A stretch of DNA of 64,000 nt from an uncultured Bacteroidales bacterium (lineage in GTDB: Bacteria > Bacteroidota > Bacteroidia > Bacteroidales > Paludibacteraceae), in assembly GCA_946059305.1 (NCBI GenBank), contig CAMGMU010000002.1, positions 1 through 64,000 of the forward strand. The letters run 5' to 3'. Position 1 is the stretch's first letter, and the number at the start of each line of letters is the position of its first letter. This document shows, in pieces, positions 32,225-40,027 of the stretch. A program made the position numbers and the translations under genes. The notes under the pieces were generated by a model. It saw nothing but the letters and a program-made list of their open reading frames with translations, made no database searches and had not been told where the DNA came from.

Positions 32225-34048
32225 TTATGTGTATAATGAATCGAGTTGCTCTGATAGCAATTCCCATTCGTACATTCGTTGTTCTAATCGATGTTTGAGT
32301 TGCTCATATTGGGTAAAACGCTCTTGCGTTTGGTTGGCGGGTTCTGCCAACAAACCTTCCATTTCGGCAATCTCGTTTTCTATTTTTGCGATATCCGCCT
32401 CAGCTTCATCCACAGCTTTTTTTGCTTTCCGAAGTTCTGCTGCTTTGGCTTTTTGTGCGGCATAATCCAATTTTCCGGCAGTAGGTACGTTTTCTTGCAA
32501 AACGGTTTGTTTGGATGCTTGTCCGCTCCGGAGCACCATATCGATAGAGCGGTCGGCATCCTCTATTTGCGCCTTTTTATATCGTAACCAATCGTAGATT
32601 CCGCCTAAATGTTCGCGCACTTTTCCATCGCCAAACTCATATACTTTGCTTGCTAATCCGGCAAGAAAATCGCGGTCGTGGCTAACGCAAATGACCGTTC
32701 CGTCAAACTCCATCAGCGCCTCTTTCAGTACGTCTTTCGATCGCATATCGAGGTGGTTGGTGGGCTCGTCGAGAATCAGCAAATTGACAGGCTCAAGAAG
32801 CAAACGAATCATTGCCAAACGGCTTCTTTCGCCACCCGAAAGAAAACGCACTTTCTTTTCGCTGGCTTCGCCTCCAAACATAAAAGCACCTAATATATCT
32901 TTGATTTTCGTGCGGATATCGCCTACTGCAACACGGTCAATCGTATCAAATACCGATAGTTCGCCATCTAATAAAGAGGCTTGATTCTGGGCGAAATAGC
33001 CAATCTTCACATTATGCCCGATTTTCAGCGTGCCGGTGTAATCTTGAATCTCCTGCATGATACACTTCACGAGCGTAGATTTGCCTTCTCCGTTTTTGCC
33101 AACGAATGCCACTTTCTCGCCTCGGCGAATGGTGAAGGTAGCATGATTAAACACCTGATGGTCGCCATACGCTTTGCCCAAATCCTCTACGATAATGGGG
33201 TAATCGCCACTCCGAGGTGCGGGCGGAAATTTCAGCCGCAGACGACTGTTATCTTCCAAGTCCACTTCTAATCGCTCCAGTTTCTCGAGTTGCTTGATGC
33301 GGCTTTGTACCTGAACCGATTTGGTAGCCTTGTAGCGAAAACGTTCGATAAACTCCTCCGTTTCCTGAATCATCTTTTGCTGATTCTCATACGCTCTTAC
33401 CTGTTGCTCATGGCGCTCTTTGCGGAGCTCCATAAACTGCGTGTAGCTTACTTGATAATCGTAGATGCGTCCAAGACTGATTTCAATCGTTCGGTTCGTT
33501 ACATTATCCAAAAATGCTCGGTCGTGGCTGACCAATAGCACAGCACTACCGCTCTGCAGCAACCATTGCTCTAACCATTGAATGGACTCGATATCCAGAT
33601 GGTTGGTGGGCTCGTCAAGAAGCAGTAAGTCGGGTTTGATTAGCAGTATTTTTGCCAATTCAATACGCATGCGCCATCCTCCGGAAAACTCCGAACAAGG
33701 CCGGTCGAAATCTGTCCGCTGAAAACCTAATCCGATGAGCACTTTCTCCATTTGCCCAATGGATTTAGGGTCGTCTTGATCGCGCACAGTATCTACTTCC
33801 TGCCGTAGAGTCGTACCTTCGTTATGAATCATGTGCTGCGGGAGGTAGCCAATGCGGAGATCCTTATCTTTGGATATGTGGCCGCTTGTTGGCTCTTCTT
33901 CCCCGGCAATCAGCCGCAAAAGGGTAGTCTTACCGGCACCATTTTTGCCGATAAGCGCCACTCTGTCACGTTTGTTGATCAAGAATGTTATGTCGTTGAG
34001 TATCGGCCGAGCCGAAAACTCCATACTGATATTTTCAATAGATACCAT
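32225..34048 (-). CDS. ABC-F family ATP-binding protein
   Basis: Two Walker A motifs (GKNGAGKTT, GKNGEGKST), FSGGWRMRIELAK, linker, LSGGERSRLAMIRLLLEPVNLLILDEPTNHLD. Confidence 0.95.
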   Translation of the reverse strand: MVSIENISMEFSARPILNDITFLINKRDRVALIGKNGAGKTTLLRLIAGEEEPTSGHISKDKDLRIGYLPQHMIHNEGTTLRQEVDTVRDQDDPKSIGQMEKVLIGLGFQRTDFDRPCSEFSGGWRMRIELAKILLIKPDLLLLDEPTNHLDIESIQWLEQWLLQSGSAVLLVSHDRAFLDNVTNRTIEISLGRIYDYQVSYTQFMELRKERHEQQVRAYENQQKMIQETEEFIERFRYKATKSVQVQSRIKQLEKLERLEVDLEDNSRLRLKFPPAPRSGDYPIIVEDLGKAYGDHQVFNHATFTIRRGEKVAFVGKNGEGKSTLVKCIMQEIQDYTGTLKIGHNVKIGYFAQNQASLLDGELSVFDTIDRVAVGDIRTKIKDILGAFMFGGEASEKKVRFLSGGERSRLAMIRLLLEPVNLLILDEPTNHLDMRSKDVLKEALMEFDGTVICVSHDRDFLAGLASKVYEFGDGKVREHLGGIYDWLRYKKAQIEDADRSIDMVLRSGQASKQTVLQENVPTAGKLDYAAQKAKAAELRKAKKAVDEAEADIAKIENEIAEMEGLLAEPANQTQERFTQYEQLKHRLEQRMYEWELLSEQLDSLYT

Positions 34049-36939
34049 TACTGCGATTTGCTTTTTGATTTTTTTGTAGCAATCGTTCCATTCTCAAGCC
34101 CTGCTTTGAGGAAACGCCCTGTGTAGCTGGCTTCGCACTTCATGAGTGCTTCCGGGGTGCCTTCAAACACGATTCTACCACCTTGTTCGCCACCTTCCGG
34201 CCCGAGGTCAATCACGTGATCTGCTGCCATAATAATCGCCGGATTATGCTCGATGATGATGACGGTATGCCCTTTTTCAATCAAGCTGTTGAGTGCTTTT
34301 AAGAGAATGGCAATATCGTGATAATGCAAGCCTGTTGTGGGCTCATCAAACACGAAAATCGTGGGATTCTGCCCTTCGCTTGCGAGGAAAGACGCGAGTT
34401 TTACGCGTTGACTTTCGCCACCCGACAACGTGCTTGACGATTGCCCTAATTTGATATAACCGATGCCTACATCTTGCAGCGGCTTCATCCGTTTAACAAT
34501 CTTTTTACAGAGCAGTTGCTCGTCTTTTGTGAGCGTGCGTCCTGCCTCTTTACCTTCCTTTTCCGCATAAGCGTTAGGATCAGAAAAGAACTCAATCGCT
34601 TGATTTACAGTCATCTCCAATACATCGAAGATGTTTTTCTCGAAAAACGTCACTTCCAATACATCCGCAGAGAATCGCTGCCCATGACAATGCTCGCATT
34701 GGAGCACCAAATCAGCCATAAACTGCATCTCAACGGTGATTGTTCCTTCTCCTTGGCATTCTTCACATCGTCCTCCCGGGGTGTTGAAACTGAAGTGTGC
34801 AGCCGTATAGCCCATCTGCTTGGAAAGCTGCTGCTCAGCATACAGTTTACGAATCTCATCATACGCTTTTAGGTAGGTGACAGGATTGCTTCGGCTGGAG
34901 CGCGAGAGTGGATTTTGGTCAACAAACTCAATATCCGTCATTCTGCTCATTGAGCCATGTAAACTGCCGAAATCCCCCGTACGCTCAGCCGTTCCACCAT
35001 AATATTTCTTCAGCGCAGGGTAGAGCACTTTCGTAACGAGCGATGACTTGCCGCTACCGCTCACTCCGGTTACAACCGTCATTACATTGAGCGGAAAACG
35101 AACAGTCAGATTCTTCAAATTGTTCTCGCATGCGCCTTGCACTTCAATATAATTATTCCACGGCCGACGAAACTCCGGCACCGGAATTCGCTCTACACCT
35201 GACAGAAAATCTTCCGTATAGGAGTGGTGAAAATGCTGCTTCACTTGCAGTTGACCATCGGCTTGCTCCATGATAGAAGCCACCTGACCGCCTCTGCGAC
35301 CAGCTTCCGGACCAATGTCAATAATATAATCGGCTGCACGCATGATTTCCTCGTCATGCTCCACAACTACGACCGTATTGCCCAAATCGCGAAGCTCTTT
35401 CAATACGTGAATGAGTTGGTTGGTGTCCCTCACGTGCAATCCGATAGAGGGTTCGTCTAAGATATACAGACTGCCCACCAAACTGCTGCCAAGCGATTTG
35501 GCCAAGGTGATGCGTTGACTCTCGCCTCCGGAGAGCGAAGCCGCCAATCGGTTGAGCGTAAGATAACTCAACCCCACTTCGCGCAAGAAACGCAGACGAT
35601 TTTGAATCTCTATCAGCAATTGCTTGGATGCTTCTCGGTCAAACGCGCTCAACTGATTGGGCAATTGCTCAAACCAAGGCTCCAACTCGCTCACGGGCAG
35701 CTTCAGCAAATCAACGATGGACTTGCCCGCAATCTTTACGTATTGCGCTTCTTTTCGGAGTCGGTATCCTTCGCATGTAGGGCAGGTTGTCTTTCCTTTG
35801 TAACGAGCCAACATCACTCGATACTGAATCTTTGCGTATTGATCTTTCTCGAGCATCTTGAAGAAATCGTTCAGCCCGCGGAAGTATTCGTTGCCAGTCC
35901 AGAGCAGTTGCTTCTGCTCGGGAGTGAGTTCGTAAAAGGGCTTGTGAATGGGGAACCCAAACTTCTGCGCATTCATGATGAGCTCCTTATTCCAACGGCT
36001 CATCTTCTCGCCTCGCCAACATGCAATCGCTTCTTCGTAAATGCTCTTGGTCTTATCCGGCACCACCAAATCAGGGTCGATACCCATGATATTGCCAAAC
36101 CCGCCACACTCAGGACAAGCCCCTAACGGACTATTGAAATCAAACAGGTGTTCGGTGGGTTCGATAAATTGAATGCCATCTGCCTCGAAGCGCTCGGAGA
36201 AAAATTCTCTATGGTTGTCTCCACCCTGTACGAGCGTTTCTACTACACATTCTCCTCCGCCTTCGAAGAAAGCGGTTTGTACGGAGTCGGCAAAACGGTT
36301 GGCTGTAGATTGCTCGCCATCTGCAATCAGTCGATCTATGAGCAAAAACAAACCCTCTTCAGAAAGGGCATCGGTTATGCCAATTGTTTTTCCATGCTGA
36401 AGCAAGCGAGAAAACCCTTGTCCTTGCCAAATCTGCAACTGTTGCTGAAGCGTTGTTCCTTCGCTCAATCGCACGGGAGAGAGAAGCATCAACTTCGTTC
36501 CGGGCACTAACCCCATCATATAGTTCACGACATCGCGAACGGTATGCCGTTTGACTTCTGCTCCGCTCACGGGCGAGTACGTGTGACCCACGCGCGCGTA
36601 CAATAATTTTAGGTACTCCGCAATCTCCGTGCTTGTGCCTACTGTGGATCGCGGATTTCTGCTTGTAACTTTCTGCTGAATAGCAATAGCAGGAGGGATG
36701 CCTTCAATAAAATCCACCTCCGGCTTCTGCATTCGCCCCAAAAATTGCCGAGCATAACTCGACAAACTCTCCACATAGCGCCTCTGCCCCTCTGCATAGA
36801 GTGTATCAAATGCGAGCGAGGACTTGCCGCTACCCGACAAGCCCGTTATCACCACCAATTTATTTCGAGGAATGTCAATCGTAACATCCTTCAAATTGTG
36901 GGTTTTTGCTCCTTGTATATGTATAGACTCTGTATCCAA
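34048..36939 (-). CDS. uvrA: Excinuclease ABC subunit A
   Basis: GLSGSGKSSLAFDTLYAEGQRRYVESLSSYARQFLG; CPECGGFG and CEECQGEG zinc motifs; 963 aa. Confidence 0.98.
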   Translation of the reverse strand: MDTESIHIQGAKTHNLKDVTIDIPRNKLVVITGLSGSGKSSLAFDTLYAEGQRRYVESLSSYARQFLGRMQKPEVDFIEGIPPAIAIQQKVTSRNPRSTVGTSTEIAEYLKLLYARVGHTYSPVSGAEVKRHTVRDVVNYMMGLVPGTKLMLLSPVRLSEGTTLQQQLQIWQGQGFSRLLQHGKTIGITDALSEEGLFLLIDRLIADGEQSTANRFADSVQTAFFEGGGECVVETLVQGGDNHREFFSERFEADGIQFIEPTEHLFDFNSPLGACPECGGFGNIMGIDPDLVVPDKTKSIYEEAIACWRGEKMSRWNKELIMNAQKFGFPIHKPFYELTPEQKQLLWTGNEYFRGLNDFFKMLEKDQYAKIQYRVMLARYKGKTTCPTCEGYRLRKEAQYVKIAGKSIVDLLKLPVSELEPWFEQLPNQLSAFDREASKQLLIEIQNRLRFLREVGLSYLTLNRLAASLSGGESQRITLAKSLGSSLVGSLYILDEPSIGLHVRDTNQLIHVLKELRDLGNTVVVVEHDEEIMRAADYIIDIGPEAGRRGGQVASIMEQADGQLQVKQHFHHSYTEDFLSGVERIPVPEFRRPWNNYIEVQGACENNLKNLTVRFPLNVMTVVTGVSGSGKSSLVTKVLYPALKKYYGGTAERTGDFGSLHGSMSRMTDIEFVDQNPLSRSSRSNPVTYLKAYDEIRKLYAEQQLSKQMGYTAAHFSFNTPGGRCEECQGEGTITVEMQFMADLVLQCEHCHGQRFSADVLEVTFFEKNIFDVLEMTVNQAIEFFSDPNAYAEKEGKEAGRTLTKDEQLLCKKIVKRMKPLQDVGIGYIKLGQSSSTLSGGESQRVKLASFLASEGQNPTIFVFDEPTTGLHYHDIAILLKALNSLIEKGHTVIIIEHNPAIIMAADHVIDLGPEGGEQGGRIVFEGTPEALMKCEASYTGRFLKAGLENGTIATKKSKSKSQ

Positions 36940-36940
36940 C

Positions 36941-38362
36941 TTATTGGTTCAAATATTGTTCTTGAAGTTTCTTAATCAGGTGTTGCGCCTTCATGTTATT
37001 GGGGTCGAAAATCTCGTCTGGCAAAGCGGGGATCTTCAATTGCGTACCTACTGTGACCGTACTCGGATTCTTTATTTTATCTTTGTTGGCTTCGTAGATG
37101 AACACCCATAATTCTTTGTTGTCGTAAAACTTTTTGGCAATCCACGTCAAGCGACTACCTTCTCTTACGGTCTCAAAACCGATGAATTCGGTGTATATGC
37201 GCTCTTTGTAGAAATCCGTTTGGGGCAATGCTTTTGGCGTTTCTGCCAATGCCGAAGAATCACCATTCCGAACGGCTTCATCCGCTGTATTCGCCACTGA
37301 ATCCGACGACTCATCGGCAAAAACAGATGCATTTGCGGTGGCTGAGAGCGCTTCATCTTGAGGAGTGGCTTCGTTGTCAACCATTGCTTGTTCTGCATTC
37401 ATTTGGCCATTCAGCATGTCTGCCCATTCTTCAATCTTATTCTGAAGGAAAAGACCGCAAATAAACAGTAGTATTATCAACGATAATACGGTAATACATG
37501 CTACCAACCATCCTCTGAATGGTTTCTCTTTCTTTTCTTCTTTCTCTTTCGTTTCTCCGTTGACTTCAGATACTTTTTGGGTATCAACCGGAGTCTCTTT
37601 CTTTTCAACTATCGGTTTCTCAACTATCGGTTCCTCTTTGCTTTCAGCATCCGGTTCCTCAACTATTGGTTCCTCTTTGCTTTCAGCATCCGATACCTCA
37701 ACTATCGGTTCCTCTTTGCTTTCAGCATCCGATACTTCAACTATCGGTTCCTCTTTGCTTTCAGCATCCGGTTCCTCAACTATCGGTTCTTCTTTGCTTT
37801 CAGCATCCGATACCTCAACTATAGGTTCCTCTTTGCTTTCAGCATCCGACTCTTCAATGGCTGATTCCTCTTTGCTTTCAACTATCGGTTCATCAACTTT
37901 TGTTTCGGTTTCAGCAGGCTCTTCGTTGGTGAGATCAGCCCCCAAATCGGCCAATAAATCTTTGATTTCCAGCGCTTGCTCATCGAATTTCTGCATGGGA
38001 TCGGACTTCGGCATTTGTCCTTCGATGACATTACCGTTATCGTCAAGAATAACAGGCTCTAAATCCGCATACGGCTCATTGATGCGCTCTTTCACATTCT
38101 GCTCCGGCGTGAACGATAACTTCTGATAACCTTCGATTACGATAGGTTCGCCTGTAGAGATGTTGACGCTTTTTCGGGGTTCTACCCATTGCAGTTTGAA
38201 CGTTCCCAAACCGCTGATTCGTACTATTTTATCTTTCTGAAGTCCTTCTTTAATCGTGGCAATGAGTAGGTTGAGGAAAGCGCTCACTTGCGCCTCCTCT
38301 ATTTGGGTTTGCTTAGCTATTGCCTTGCGTAGATCGACTATGGTAATTTTTTCTTCTGCCAT
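36941..38362 (-). CDS. HU-domain / acidic repeat / transmembrane / LysM chimeric protein
   Basis: N-terminal HU (GLGTFKLQWVEPRKSVNISTGEPIVIEGYQKLSFTP), 13-aa DAESKEEPIVEVS repeats, TM helix GWLVACITVLSLIILLFICGLFL after KKEKPFR, C-terminal LysM-like EGSRLTWIAKKFYDNKELWVFIYEANKDKIKNPSTVTVGTQLKIP. Confidence 0.88.
   Translation of the reverse strand: MAEEKITIVDLRKAIAKQTQIEEAQVSAFLNLLIATIKEGLQKDKIVRISGLGTFKLQWVEPRKSVNISTGEPIVIEGYQKLSFTPEQNVKERINEPYADLEPVILDDNGNVIEGQMPKSDPMQKFDEQALEIKDLLADLGADLTNEEPAETETKVDEPIVESKEESAIEESDAESKEEPIVEVSDAESKEEPIVEEPDAESKEEPIVEVSDAESKEEPIVEVSDAESKEEPIVEEPDAESKEEPIVEKPIVEKKETPVDTQKVSEVNGETKEKEEKKEKPFRGWLVACITVLSLIILLFICGLFLQNKIEEWADMLNGQMNAEQAMVDNEATPQDEALSATANASVFADESSDSVANTADEAVRNGDSSALAETPKALPQTDFYKERIYTEFIGFETVREGSRLTWIAKKFYDNKELWVFIYEANKDKIKNPSTVTVGTQLKIPALPDEIFDPNNMKAQHLIKKLQEQYLNQ
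37622..37858 (-). repeat. 39-bp tandem repeat (~6 copies) encoding DAESKEEPIVE(VS/EP)
   Basis: ACTATCGGTTCCTCTTTGCTTTCAGCATCCGGTTCCTCA-type units on the + strand. Confidence 0.9.
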
Positions 38363-38365
38363 CGT

Positions 38366-38656
38366 TTATGCGTTCTTCAGTTCCTCTTTCAAATTTGGAT
38401 TGGCTTTGAAATTAACTTGCAATTTCGGGGGTGTAAGCGTTCGAACGCCCGTCTTGGGGTGTACGGATACACGCTCGTTTTTTTGCTTCACTTCCAATGT
38501 TCCAAAGTTCTGAATCATAACGCTTTTGCCATCCAGAAGCGATTGCACAATCGTATCGCTGGTGGCATTTAATAGCTGTTCGGTTTGCACCTTGGTCATG
38601 TTCAAACGATTCGCTATTTCATTTATGAGTTCTTTTTGTGTCATGTATTCAGTCAA
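38366..38656 (-). CDS. HU family DNA-binding protein
   Basis: MTQKELINEIANRLNMTKVQTEQLLNATSDTIVQSLLDGKSVMIQNFGTLEVKQK. Confidence 0.93.
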   Translation of the reverse strand: MTEYMTQKELINEIANRLNMTKVQTEQLLNATSDTIVQSLLDGKSVMIQNFGTLEVKQKNERVSVHPKTGVRTLTPPKLQVNFKANPNLKEELKNA

Positions 38657-38662
38657 TAATTG

Positions 38663-40027
38663 TTATTGTATCAGTTCGCCATACAGGTCGAAATTCTCGC
38701 TTCCTGTTATCTTGATATCGTAGAATGCGCCCACTTGCAGAGGTGTCAGCTTGCTGATGAGTACCTCGCAATCCACTTCCGGACTGTCCCACTCTGTACG
38801 GCCTACATAATAATCGTCTTCTTCGCGGTCGATGATGGTTCGGAGCGTCTTTCCTATACGGCTTTCGCTAATCTCGCTGGCAATCTTCTCTTGCAAACGC
38901 ATCAACGTATCCAATCGATTCTGCTTCACATCCTCCGGTATATCGTCGGCATAATGTTCGGCTGCATAGGTGCCTTCTTCGTTGGAAAAAGCAAACGCTC
39001 CCATTCGCTCAAACCGCATCGTCTCTGCAAACTGCAGAAGTGCGCTAAAGTCCTCCTCCGTTTCGCCCGGATGCCCCACCATCAGAGTCGTTCGGAGGCA
39101 GATCCCCGGTACTTCTTGTCGGATGGTGCGAATCAAGTCGGTTTGTTCTTGAGCAGAAATGTGCCGCCTCATTTTCGTGAGCATATTGTCCGTACAATGC
39201 TGAAGCGCTATATCGAGGTACTTGCACACATTCTTTCTTTCGCGCATGACGCGCAAGAGGTCCATAGGAAAATCGGTAGGGTAGGCGTAATGCAAACGAA
39301 TCCATTCCACGCCCTCAATATCGCTCATGCGTTCTACCAATTGCGGCAACAGATGCACCCCTTTCCGGCCATCAACCTCCAAATCCGTTCCATAGGCGGA
39401 TAAGTCTTGAGCAATCACCTGAAACTCCTTGACGCCTTGCTTGGTCAACCATCGTACCTCTTCGAGAATCTCCTCCATCGGCCTACTCGTATGCCGCCCC
39501 GTGATGAGCGGAATGGCGCAATACGAGCAGAAGCGGTTGCATCCTTCAGAAATCTTGAGGTATGCGAAATGCCCTGGGGTGGTGAGGGTTCGCTCTTGCA
39601 GACAACCCGTTTCTACGGCATGGCCGAGGTCGGCAATCAAGTCCATGAAAGAGAACTTGCCGTAATACTTGTCCACTTCCGGCAACTCTTCCTCCAGTTC
39701 TGCCATGTATCGCTCGCTGAGGCAACCCATCACGAAGAGTTTCTTCAGTTTTTTCCGTTTCTTACGCTCTGCAAATTGCAGAATCGTGTTGATGGATTCT
39801 TCTTTGGCATCACCTATAAATCCACAGGTATTGATTACGGCAATCTCGCCTTGCGGCTGCTCGGAGTCGTGAACACAACGATAGCCTGCTGCCTCCAATT
39901 GGCGCATCAACCGCTCTGCATCCACTAAGTTTTTGGAGCATCCTAATGTGATAATATCAATTTCGTTTTTGTGCAAAATGGTCGTATTACGTTGATTATT
40001 GTAGGATGAAAATGGGATACCCACCAT
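38663..40027 (-). CDS. rimO: Ribosomal protein S12 methylthiotransferase
   Basis: ITLGCSKNLVDAERLM; radical SAM CNRFCSYCAIP; C-terminal TRAM-like region; exact start uncertain. Confidence 0.95.
   Translation of the reverse strand: MVGIPFSSYNNQRNTTILHKNEIDIITLGCSKNLVDAERLMRQLEAAGYRCVHDSEQPQGEIAVINTCGFIGDAKEESINTILQFAERKKRKKLKKLFVMGCLSERYMAELEEELPEVDKYYGKFSFMDLIADLGHAVETGCLQERTLTTPGHFAYLKISEGCNRFCSYCAIPLITGRHTSRPMEEILEEVRWLTKQGVKEFQVIAQDLSAYGTDLEVDGRKGVHLLPQLVERMSDIEGVEWIRLHYAYPTDFPMDLLRVMRERKNVCKYLDIALQHCTDNMLTKMRRHISAQEQTDLIRTIRQEVPGICLRTTLMVGHPGETEEDFSALLQFAETMRFERMGAFAFSNEEGTYAAEHYADDIPEDVKQNRLDTLMRLQEKIASEISESRIGKTLRTIIDREEDDYYVGRTEWDSPEVDCEVLISKLTPLQVGAFYDIKITGSENFDLYGELIQ

Follow-up and report, generated by a model that had tools for sequence, protein, structure and literature searches.

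A membrane protein with HU and LysM domains and its small HU partner: a possible two-gene link between nucleoid and cell wall in Bacteroidota

In the DNA of an uncultured bacterium of the Paludibacteraceae (Bacteroidales), one gene appeared to join a DNA-binding domain of the HU type to a LysM domain, with a single transmembrane (TM) helix between them. The sequence-only reading of this gene suggested a chimera that might link chromosome and cell wall, which raises the question of whether such a protein exists as predicted, whether it forms a unit by itself, and what its two ends could hold. The window, that is the whole 64,000-nucleotide stretch of DNA analyzed, does contain the proposed coding region as one minus-strand open reading frame of 473 residues. 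This gene is here called HUL, and the small HU gene upstream of it sHU (Table 1). A one-off chimera or an assembly artefact is ruled out by the conservation of the architecture throughout the family and by its presence in a second class.

Table 1. Features of the sHU-HUL locus, with related barrel proteins of other genomes in the last row
Feature	Position	Strand	Basis
HUL (HU-TM-LysM gene), 473 aa	36941..38362	-	Open reading frame, Pfam, family-wide matches, AlphaFold2 model
HU domain of HUL, residues 1-96, predicted cytoplasmic	38075..38362	-	Pfam PF00216, 68.7 bits; AlphaFold2 and Foldseek to HU/IHF
Beta-arm of the HUL HU domain, residues 57-80 (EPRKSVNISTGEPIVIEGYQKLS)	38123..38194	-	AlphaFold2, conservation; I replaces the intercalating proline
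Conserved cytoplasmic helix of HUL, residues 121-141 (PMQKFDEQALEIKDLLADLGA)	37940..38002	-	AlphaFold2 helix 122-141; mean pairwise column identity 0.55
Acidic linker of HUL, 39-bp tandem repeats (unit approximately SKEEPIVEVSDAE)	37613..37898	-	Tandem Repeats Finder
Transmembrane helix of HUL, residues 284-306, KKEKPFR just before	37445..37513	-	Hydropathy 2.99; AlphaFold2 helix 284-319
LysM domain of HUL, residues 393-446, predicted periplasmic	37025..37186	-	Profile, AlphaFold2, Foldseek
C-terminal helix after the LysM domain of HUL, residues 457-470	36953..36994	-	AlphaFold2; extension common to relatives' OmpA-LysM proteins
sHU (small HU gene), probable partner, 92 aa from ATG	38366..38644	-	Pfam PF00216, adjacency, co-occurrence, fusions
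rimO, upstream neighbour, probable operon	38663..40027	-	TIGR01125, 432 bits (cut-off 357)
uvrA, downstream neighbour, 1 bp after HUL	34048..36939	-	TIGR00630, 1025 bits (cut-off 730)
Barrel-OmpA-LysM proteins of relatives	L165:2079-3752, L166:1285-3168, L167:1183-2877, L168:2015-3997, L169:1924-3522		

The N-terminal HU-like domain was confirmed by sequence and by model. It scored 68.7 bits against the Pfam family Bac_DNA_binding (cut-off 22.4), which was also matched by 52 of 52 relatives, and a PDB search with this domain returned IHF and HU. In the AlphaFold2 model, a monomer built from 52 sequences, the HU domain has its helices and both arm strands, with block-mean pLDDT values mostly of 94-97, and a Foldseek search with the model led to HU and IHF structures, several of them bound to DNA. 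The HU domain is followed in order by a helix, the acidic linker, the KKEKPFR stretch, the TM helix, an unconserved linker, a beta-alpha-alpha-beta domain and a final helix, so the long acidic linker and the basic stretch before one TM helix are all present as first described. The acidic linker consists of a 39-bp (13-aa) unit in 7.3 copies with 87% matches (Tandem Repeats Finder). The linkers before and after the TM helix are about 150 and 75 residues long, respectively. The mean pairwise identity within the family was 0.55 in the arm, 0.31 in the HU helices and 0.10 in both linkers; the arm, the LysM domain and the cytoplasmic helix all fall at 0.53-0.57, which indicates that the linkers are spacers between working parts. 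The helix (PLxKLxEQAxEIKxLL) is as conserved as the arm and has no family match, and it could serve another protein as a docking site. On the plus strand, a 188-residue open reading frame at 37560-38126 with SSTIGSSLLSASDTS repeats reads the 39-bp repeat in antisense and is most likely no gene. In two other genomes (L092:4001-5323 and L096:4001-5221) the HU-LysM frame is broken into two open reading frames by frameshift, assembly error or decay.

The proposed topology, with HU in the cytoplasm and LysM in the periplasm, also held. A hydropathy scan of 104 relatives showed no strongly hydrophobic segment besides the TM helix in any of them, so nothing points to a signal peptide. The flanks of the TM helix carry charges of +2 inside and -2 outside in the window protein, and in Bacteroidales HUL the median charge is +3 over the 12 residues before the helix and 0 over the 12 after it. 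By this crude, unrefined count 90 of the 104 proteins carry more positive charge on the HU side, and 14 break the positive-inside rule. The positive HU side and the missing signal peptide together predict HU inside and LysM outside, an orientation that is well supported by these sequence features.

The same topology is found in CadC and ToxR, one-component membrane regulators with a winged helix, in which a DNA-binding N-terminus is joined by one TM helix to a periplasmic sensor. HUL might accordingly be a membrane-bound regulator, in which LysM would sense wall fragments or the state of the wall and the tethered HU pair would alter transcription nearby or of envelope genes; its standing as a conserved core gene in its own family would fit such a role. 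However, HU shows little selectivity for the DNA sequences it binds, unconserved linkers of these lengths would transmit a signal poorly, and there is no conserved set of nearby target genes except rimO. We consider a regulator very improbable, and the reading that we prefer, a DNA clamp anchored to the wall, is followed below.

HUL does not stand alone. Here the sequence-only reading, which took a single chimeric protein as the unit, was right that the protein is real, but adjacency, co-occurrence and fusions make the unit one of two genes. The sHU product scored 89.2 bits against PF00216 (cut-off 22.4), and a longer version from a TTG start at 38656 is possible. Among the fetched loci, a small HU gene lies immediately upstream of HUL in 100 of 103 cases; of the other three HUL genes, one starts at the edge of its contig. 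In most pairs the two genes overlap, sharing 4 or 8 bp with the stop codon included. rimO adjoins the pair in most relatives and the order with uvrA is the same in near relatives, and the pair persists where rimO or uvrA does not adjoin. Strong matches to the sHU profile occurred in 15 of the 119 Bacteroidales genomes sampled (about one per family), and 14 of these 15 genomes also have HUL; the fifteenth match (G130, L135) is an ordinary HU that groups with ordinary HUs in the tree. Chance adjacency of two HU genes is ruled out by the adjacency counts and the co-occurrence. The partner is not strictly needed, since three genomes (G050, G375 and G376) keep HUL without any sHU.

In two other families the two genes are joined into one sHU-HU-TM-LysM polypeptide. 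The halves of both fusions prefer their own profiles, with 88 versus 20% and 94 versus 57% in G146 (L171), and 98 versus 53% and 97 versus 42% in G090 (L178), while shuffled halves reached at most 10%. In both genomes rimO precedes the fusion and a MoxR-type gene follows it, so the fusion may represent one event. The architecture and the pairing of sHU and HUL are well supported by these observations.

The two HU domains differ in the residues that contact DNA. Given in reference HU numbering (the reference sequence was used to number positions and for nothing else), sHU of Bacteroidales has the arm-tip proline in 98% of cases and K/R at positions 53, 55, 58, 68, 74, 80 and 86. In Bacteroidales HUL the proline is replaced by V/I in 96%, with Q at 53, N/V at 55 and T/V at 80; R58 is kept in 96% and K/R mostly at 59 and 86. 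The net charge is about 0 in the membrane HU versus +5 in sHU. HUL of the other class has P as its arm proline in 100% of cases. The DNA-contacting arm itself is present in the window protein and strongly conserved. The fold and the arm fit the earlier claim that the HU domain may bind DNA, but the arm proline and several basic contacts are lost in Bacteroidales HUL and kept in sHU. By sequence the membrane HU, taken by itself, seems weakened as a DNA binder, and sHU and HUL together resemble an IHF-style heterodimer in which the labour is divided, a reading suggested by their adjacency, co-occurrence and natural fusions.

As in IHF alpha/beta, the two probable subunits have diverged and share the HU fold and the arm. 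IHF has a proline in both arms, its two genes are not known to be adjacent, and it is soluble, whereas HUL is a membrane protein with V/I for the arm proline. Single-chain versions work, as in the engineered single-chain IHF (scIHF) of PDB entry 2iie, which the natural sHU-HUL fusions parallel. Among distant relatives, membrane HUs that have lost the arm occur in G137, G146 and G090 and at loci L133, L171 and L178. Armless membrane HUs were seen in three Bacteroidales families (L170:2280-3767, L171:2989-4362 and L178:2063-4327), with sHU fused in front in two of them. In addition, a second HU of ordinary size (L151, G000:C1:26114-26380; L163; L164) has RNI rather than RNP at the arm tip; in the HU tree this RNI-type HU branches separately, as a further HU type with a hydrophobic residue for the proline.

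The strongest rival to the tether is a role in protein contacts. The HU-fold pair could be a scaffold that links a cytoplasmic partner, such as a cytoskeletal, division or replication protein, to the wall. The membrane HU lacks several DNA-contacting residues and has almost no net charge, some relatives have deleted the arm, and the conserved extra helix plays no part in how HU binds DNA. A protein-contact role has been predicted for eukaryotic CCDC81, and in RodZ, which connects the wall machinery with a structure in the cytoplasm, the cytoplasmic helix-turn-helix domain binds MreB. HUL resembles RodZ in having a cytoplasmic fold of DNA-binding type, one TM helix and a periplasmic domain, but the domains of the two proteins are unrelated, and RodZ is known to bind MreB, not DNA. 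Against a scaffold, few parts of the protein are as well conserved in most copies as the arm, including R58, and the established role of the arm in HU/IHF is DNA contact; sHU, moreover, retains the proline and the basic residues that DNA binders usually have. A protein-binding pair is on balance unlikely, and the anchored DNA clamp remains the preferred reading.

The C-terminal LysM-like domain was borne out by profile and fold, though it stays below the Pfam cut-off. The window protein scored 15.1 bits against Pfam LysM as a whole and 19.2 bits as the domain alone, missing the cut-off of 20.9. None of 52 full-length relatives matched Pfam LysM at E 0.001, so ordinary annotation may miss the domain. 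A profile of 26 relatives matched the LysM part of Escherichia coli Kbp at 7e-9, and the LysM part of PRK11198 was matched by 26 of 26 family members. In the AlphaFold2 model the domain has the beta-alpha-alpha-beta order of LysM, and the LysM match in Foldseek was Kbp at 33% identity. Judged from profile and model, the domain is a LysM by descent, and a divergent one. The likeness to Kbp/YgaU (PRK11198) lies in LysM sequence and fold; Kbp, a known potassium-binding protein, has a BON domain and neither a TM helix nor an HU domain, unlike HUL.

What this LysM holds is less readily deduced. In most HUL copies the GDTL motif is changed to G[S/T]RL (S in 77%, R in 92%), so that glycan binding should not be assumed and the ligand is not given by homology. 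In five relatives the same module forms the C-terminus of proteins that combine an outer-membrane barrel with an OmpA domain, which places this type of LysM outside the inner membrane, beside a peptidoglycan-binding domain; the window's own genome yielded no such protein. The occurrence in OmpA-LysM proteins speaks for peptidoglycan binding by the LysM of HUL, which would agree with the earlier claim that it binds peptidoglycan glycan, but the replacement of GDTL weakens that claim. The LysM of the relatives' secreted barrel proteins was the closest match to the module of HUL. The pair might instead link the nucleoid to a periplasmic partner at the inner membrane, with LysM binding a different glycan, an envelope protein or an ion, in the way that Kbp binds potassium. 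The altered motif and Kbp as the closest solved relative would fit this, but the same module ends OmpA-type proteins whose OmpA domain binds peptidoglycan, and we regard a ligand other than peptidoglycan as quite improbable. The tether to the wall is therefore kept here as the preferred reading.

The distribution of the pair bears on whether it is a local peculiarity. In the Paludibacteraceae, matches were found in 59 of 61 genomes, a few of them, some in incomplete genomes, covering the HU or LysM parts only, and in all 44 high-quality genomes. HU-LysM proteins also occurred in 17 of 118 other Bacteroidales families sampled. In a sample of 198 genomes across the phylum, other matches at 1e-19 were restricted to 22 genomes of one family of another class (f140), in which sHU and an HU-acidic-TM-LysM protein were paired at 9 of 9 loci examined. 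In the tree of HU domains, the membrane HUs of both classes form one clade (99/98), separate from ordinary HUs (95/92). The pair is thus either of old origin or was transferred from one class to another, and is not a local chimera. Our search of the open literature, with the 2017 HU/IHF survey lying outside its scope, found no description of the HU-LysM architecture.

The nearest known kind of protein has the architecture HU-CCDC81_bac_1/2-TM-SPOR (PF18174, PF18175, PF05036). Burroughs, Kaur, Zhang and Aravind are said to have described these proteins in 2017 and to have predicted a role in chromosome partitioning. The architecture was seen in three examples checked by Pfam, and such proteins occur in 104 of 119 Bacteroidales genomes; the initial suggestion was that HUL may be a LysM variant of such a broader theme. 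Like HUL, they combine an N-terminal part of the HU superfamily, one TM helix and a C-terminal domain of peptidoglycan-binding type. They differ in carrying two CCDC81-type HU domains per chain and SPOR, whereas HUL has LysM and an HU of the ordinary Bac_DNA_binding type, with its partner in a separate gene. In Pfam searches HUL did not match HU-CCDC81_bac_1, reached 19.8 bits for bac_2 (cut-off 35) and did not match SPOR, with LysM in its place. No HU-CCDC81-SPOR protein was found in the window's genome (95% complete). Of the 17 other Bacteroidales families with HUL, 14 have both kinds, so that HU-LysM and HU-CCDC81-SPOR are parallel systems, and replacement of one by the other is ruled out.

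The mechanism that we propose starts from an IHF-like heterodimer. The small HU and the HU domain of HUL would bind and bend DNA together in the cytoplasm, with sHU giving a strong, proline-tipped basic arm and HUL a weaker arm and the anchor. The long, flexible acidic linker would connect this clamp to the single helix in the inner membrane, and beyond the membrane the shorter linker would bear the LysM domain, which may hold peptidoglycan or a wall-associated glycan. The pair would in this way tether the nucleoid to the envelope, in parallel to the HU-CCDC81-TM-SPOR proteins. From the domains, fold, pairing, co-occurrence, fusions and common origin established by computation, we infer that the pair may bind DNA and wall and have a role in nucleoid organization. 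Counted against it are the loss of the proline and basic contacts, the arm deletions, the HUL genes without sHU, the absence of GDTL, the likeness to Kbp and the 14 of 104 charge exceptions. The nucleoid-to-wall tether suggested by the sequence-only reading is still the best reading, as its domains and orientation hold, but it has changed into one with two genes, a weakened arm and a LysM without GDTL. The reading of an HU heterodimer as a clamp that is anchored to the wall across the inner membrane is, in our estimate, just as apt to be right as wrong.

Few studies have dealt with the holding and positioning of the nucleoid in Bacteroidota, and apart from HU-SPOR proteins and the division machinery, proteins that connect DNA directly with the wall across the inner membrane have seldom been proposed. 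More tentatively, the pair may be a conserved, vertically kept two-gene linker dedicated to joining DNA, membrane and wall, whose IHF-like heterodimer would physically fix the nucleoid to peptidoglycan, and a core function of several Bacteroidota families. With a small two-gene core system whose partners are readable, the holding of the nucleoid becomes a testable question. If the proposed role is true, HU/IHF proteins would be used here as an anchored clamp and not as a diffusible packaging protein.
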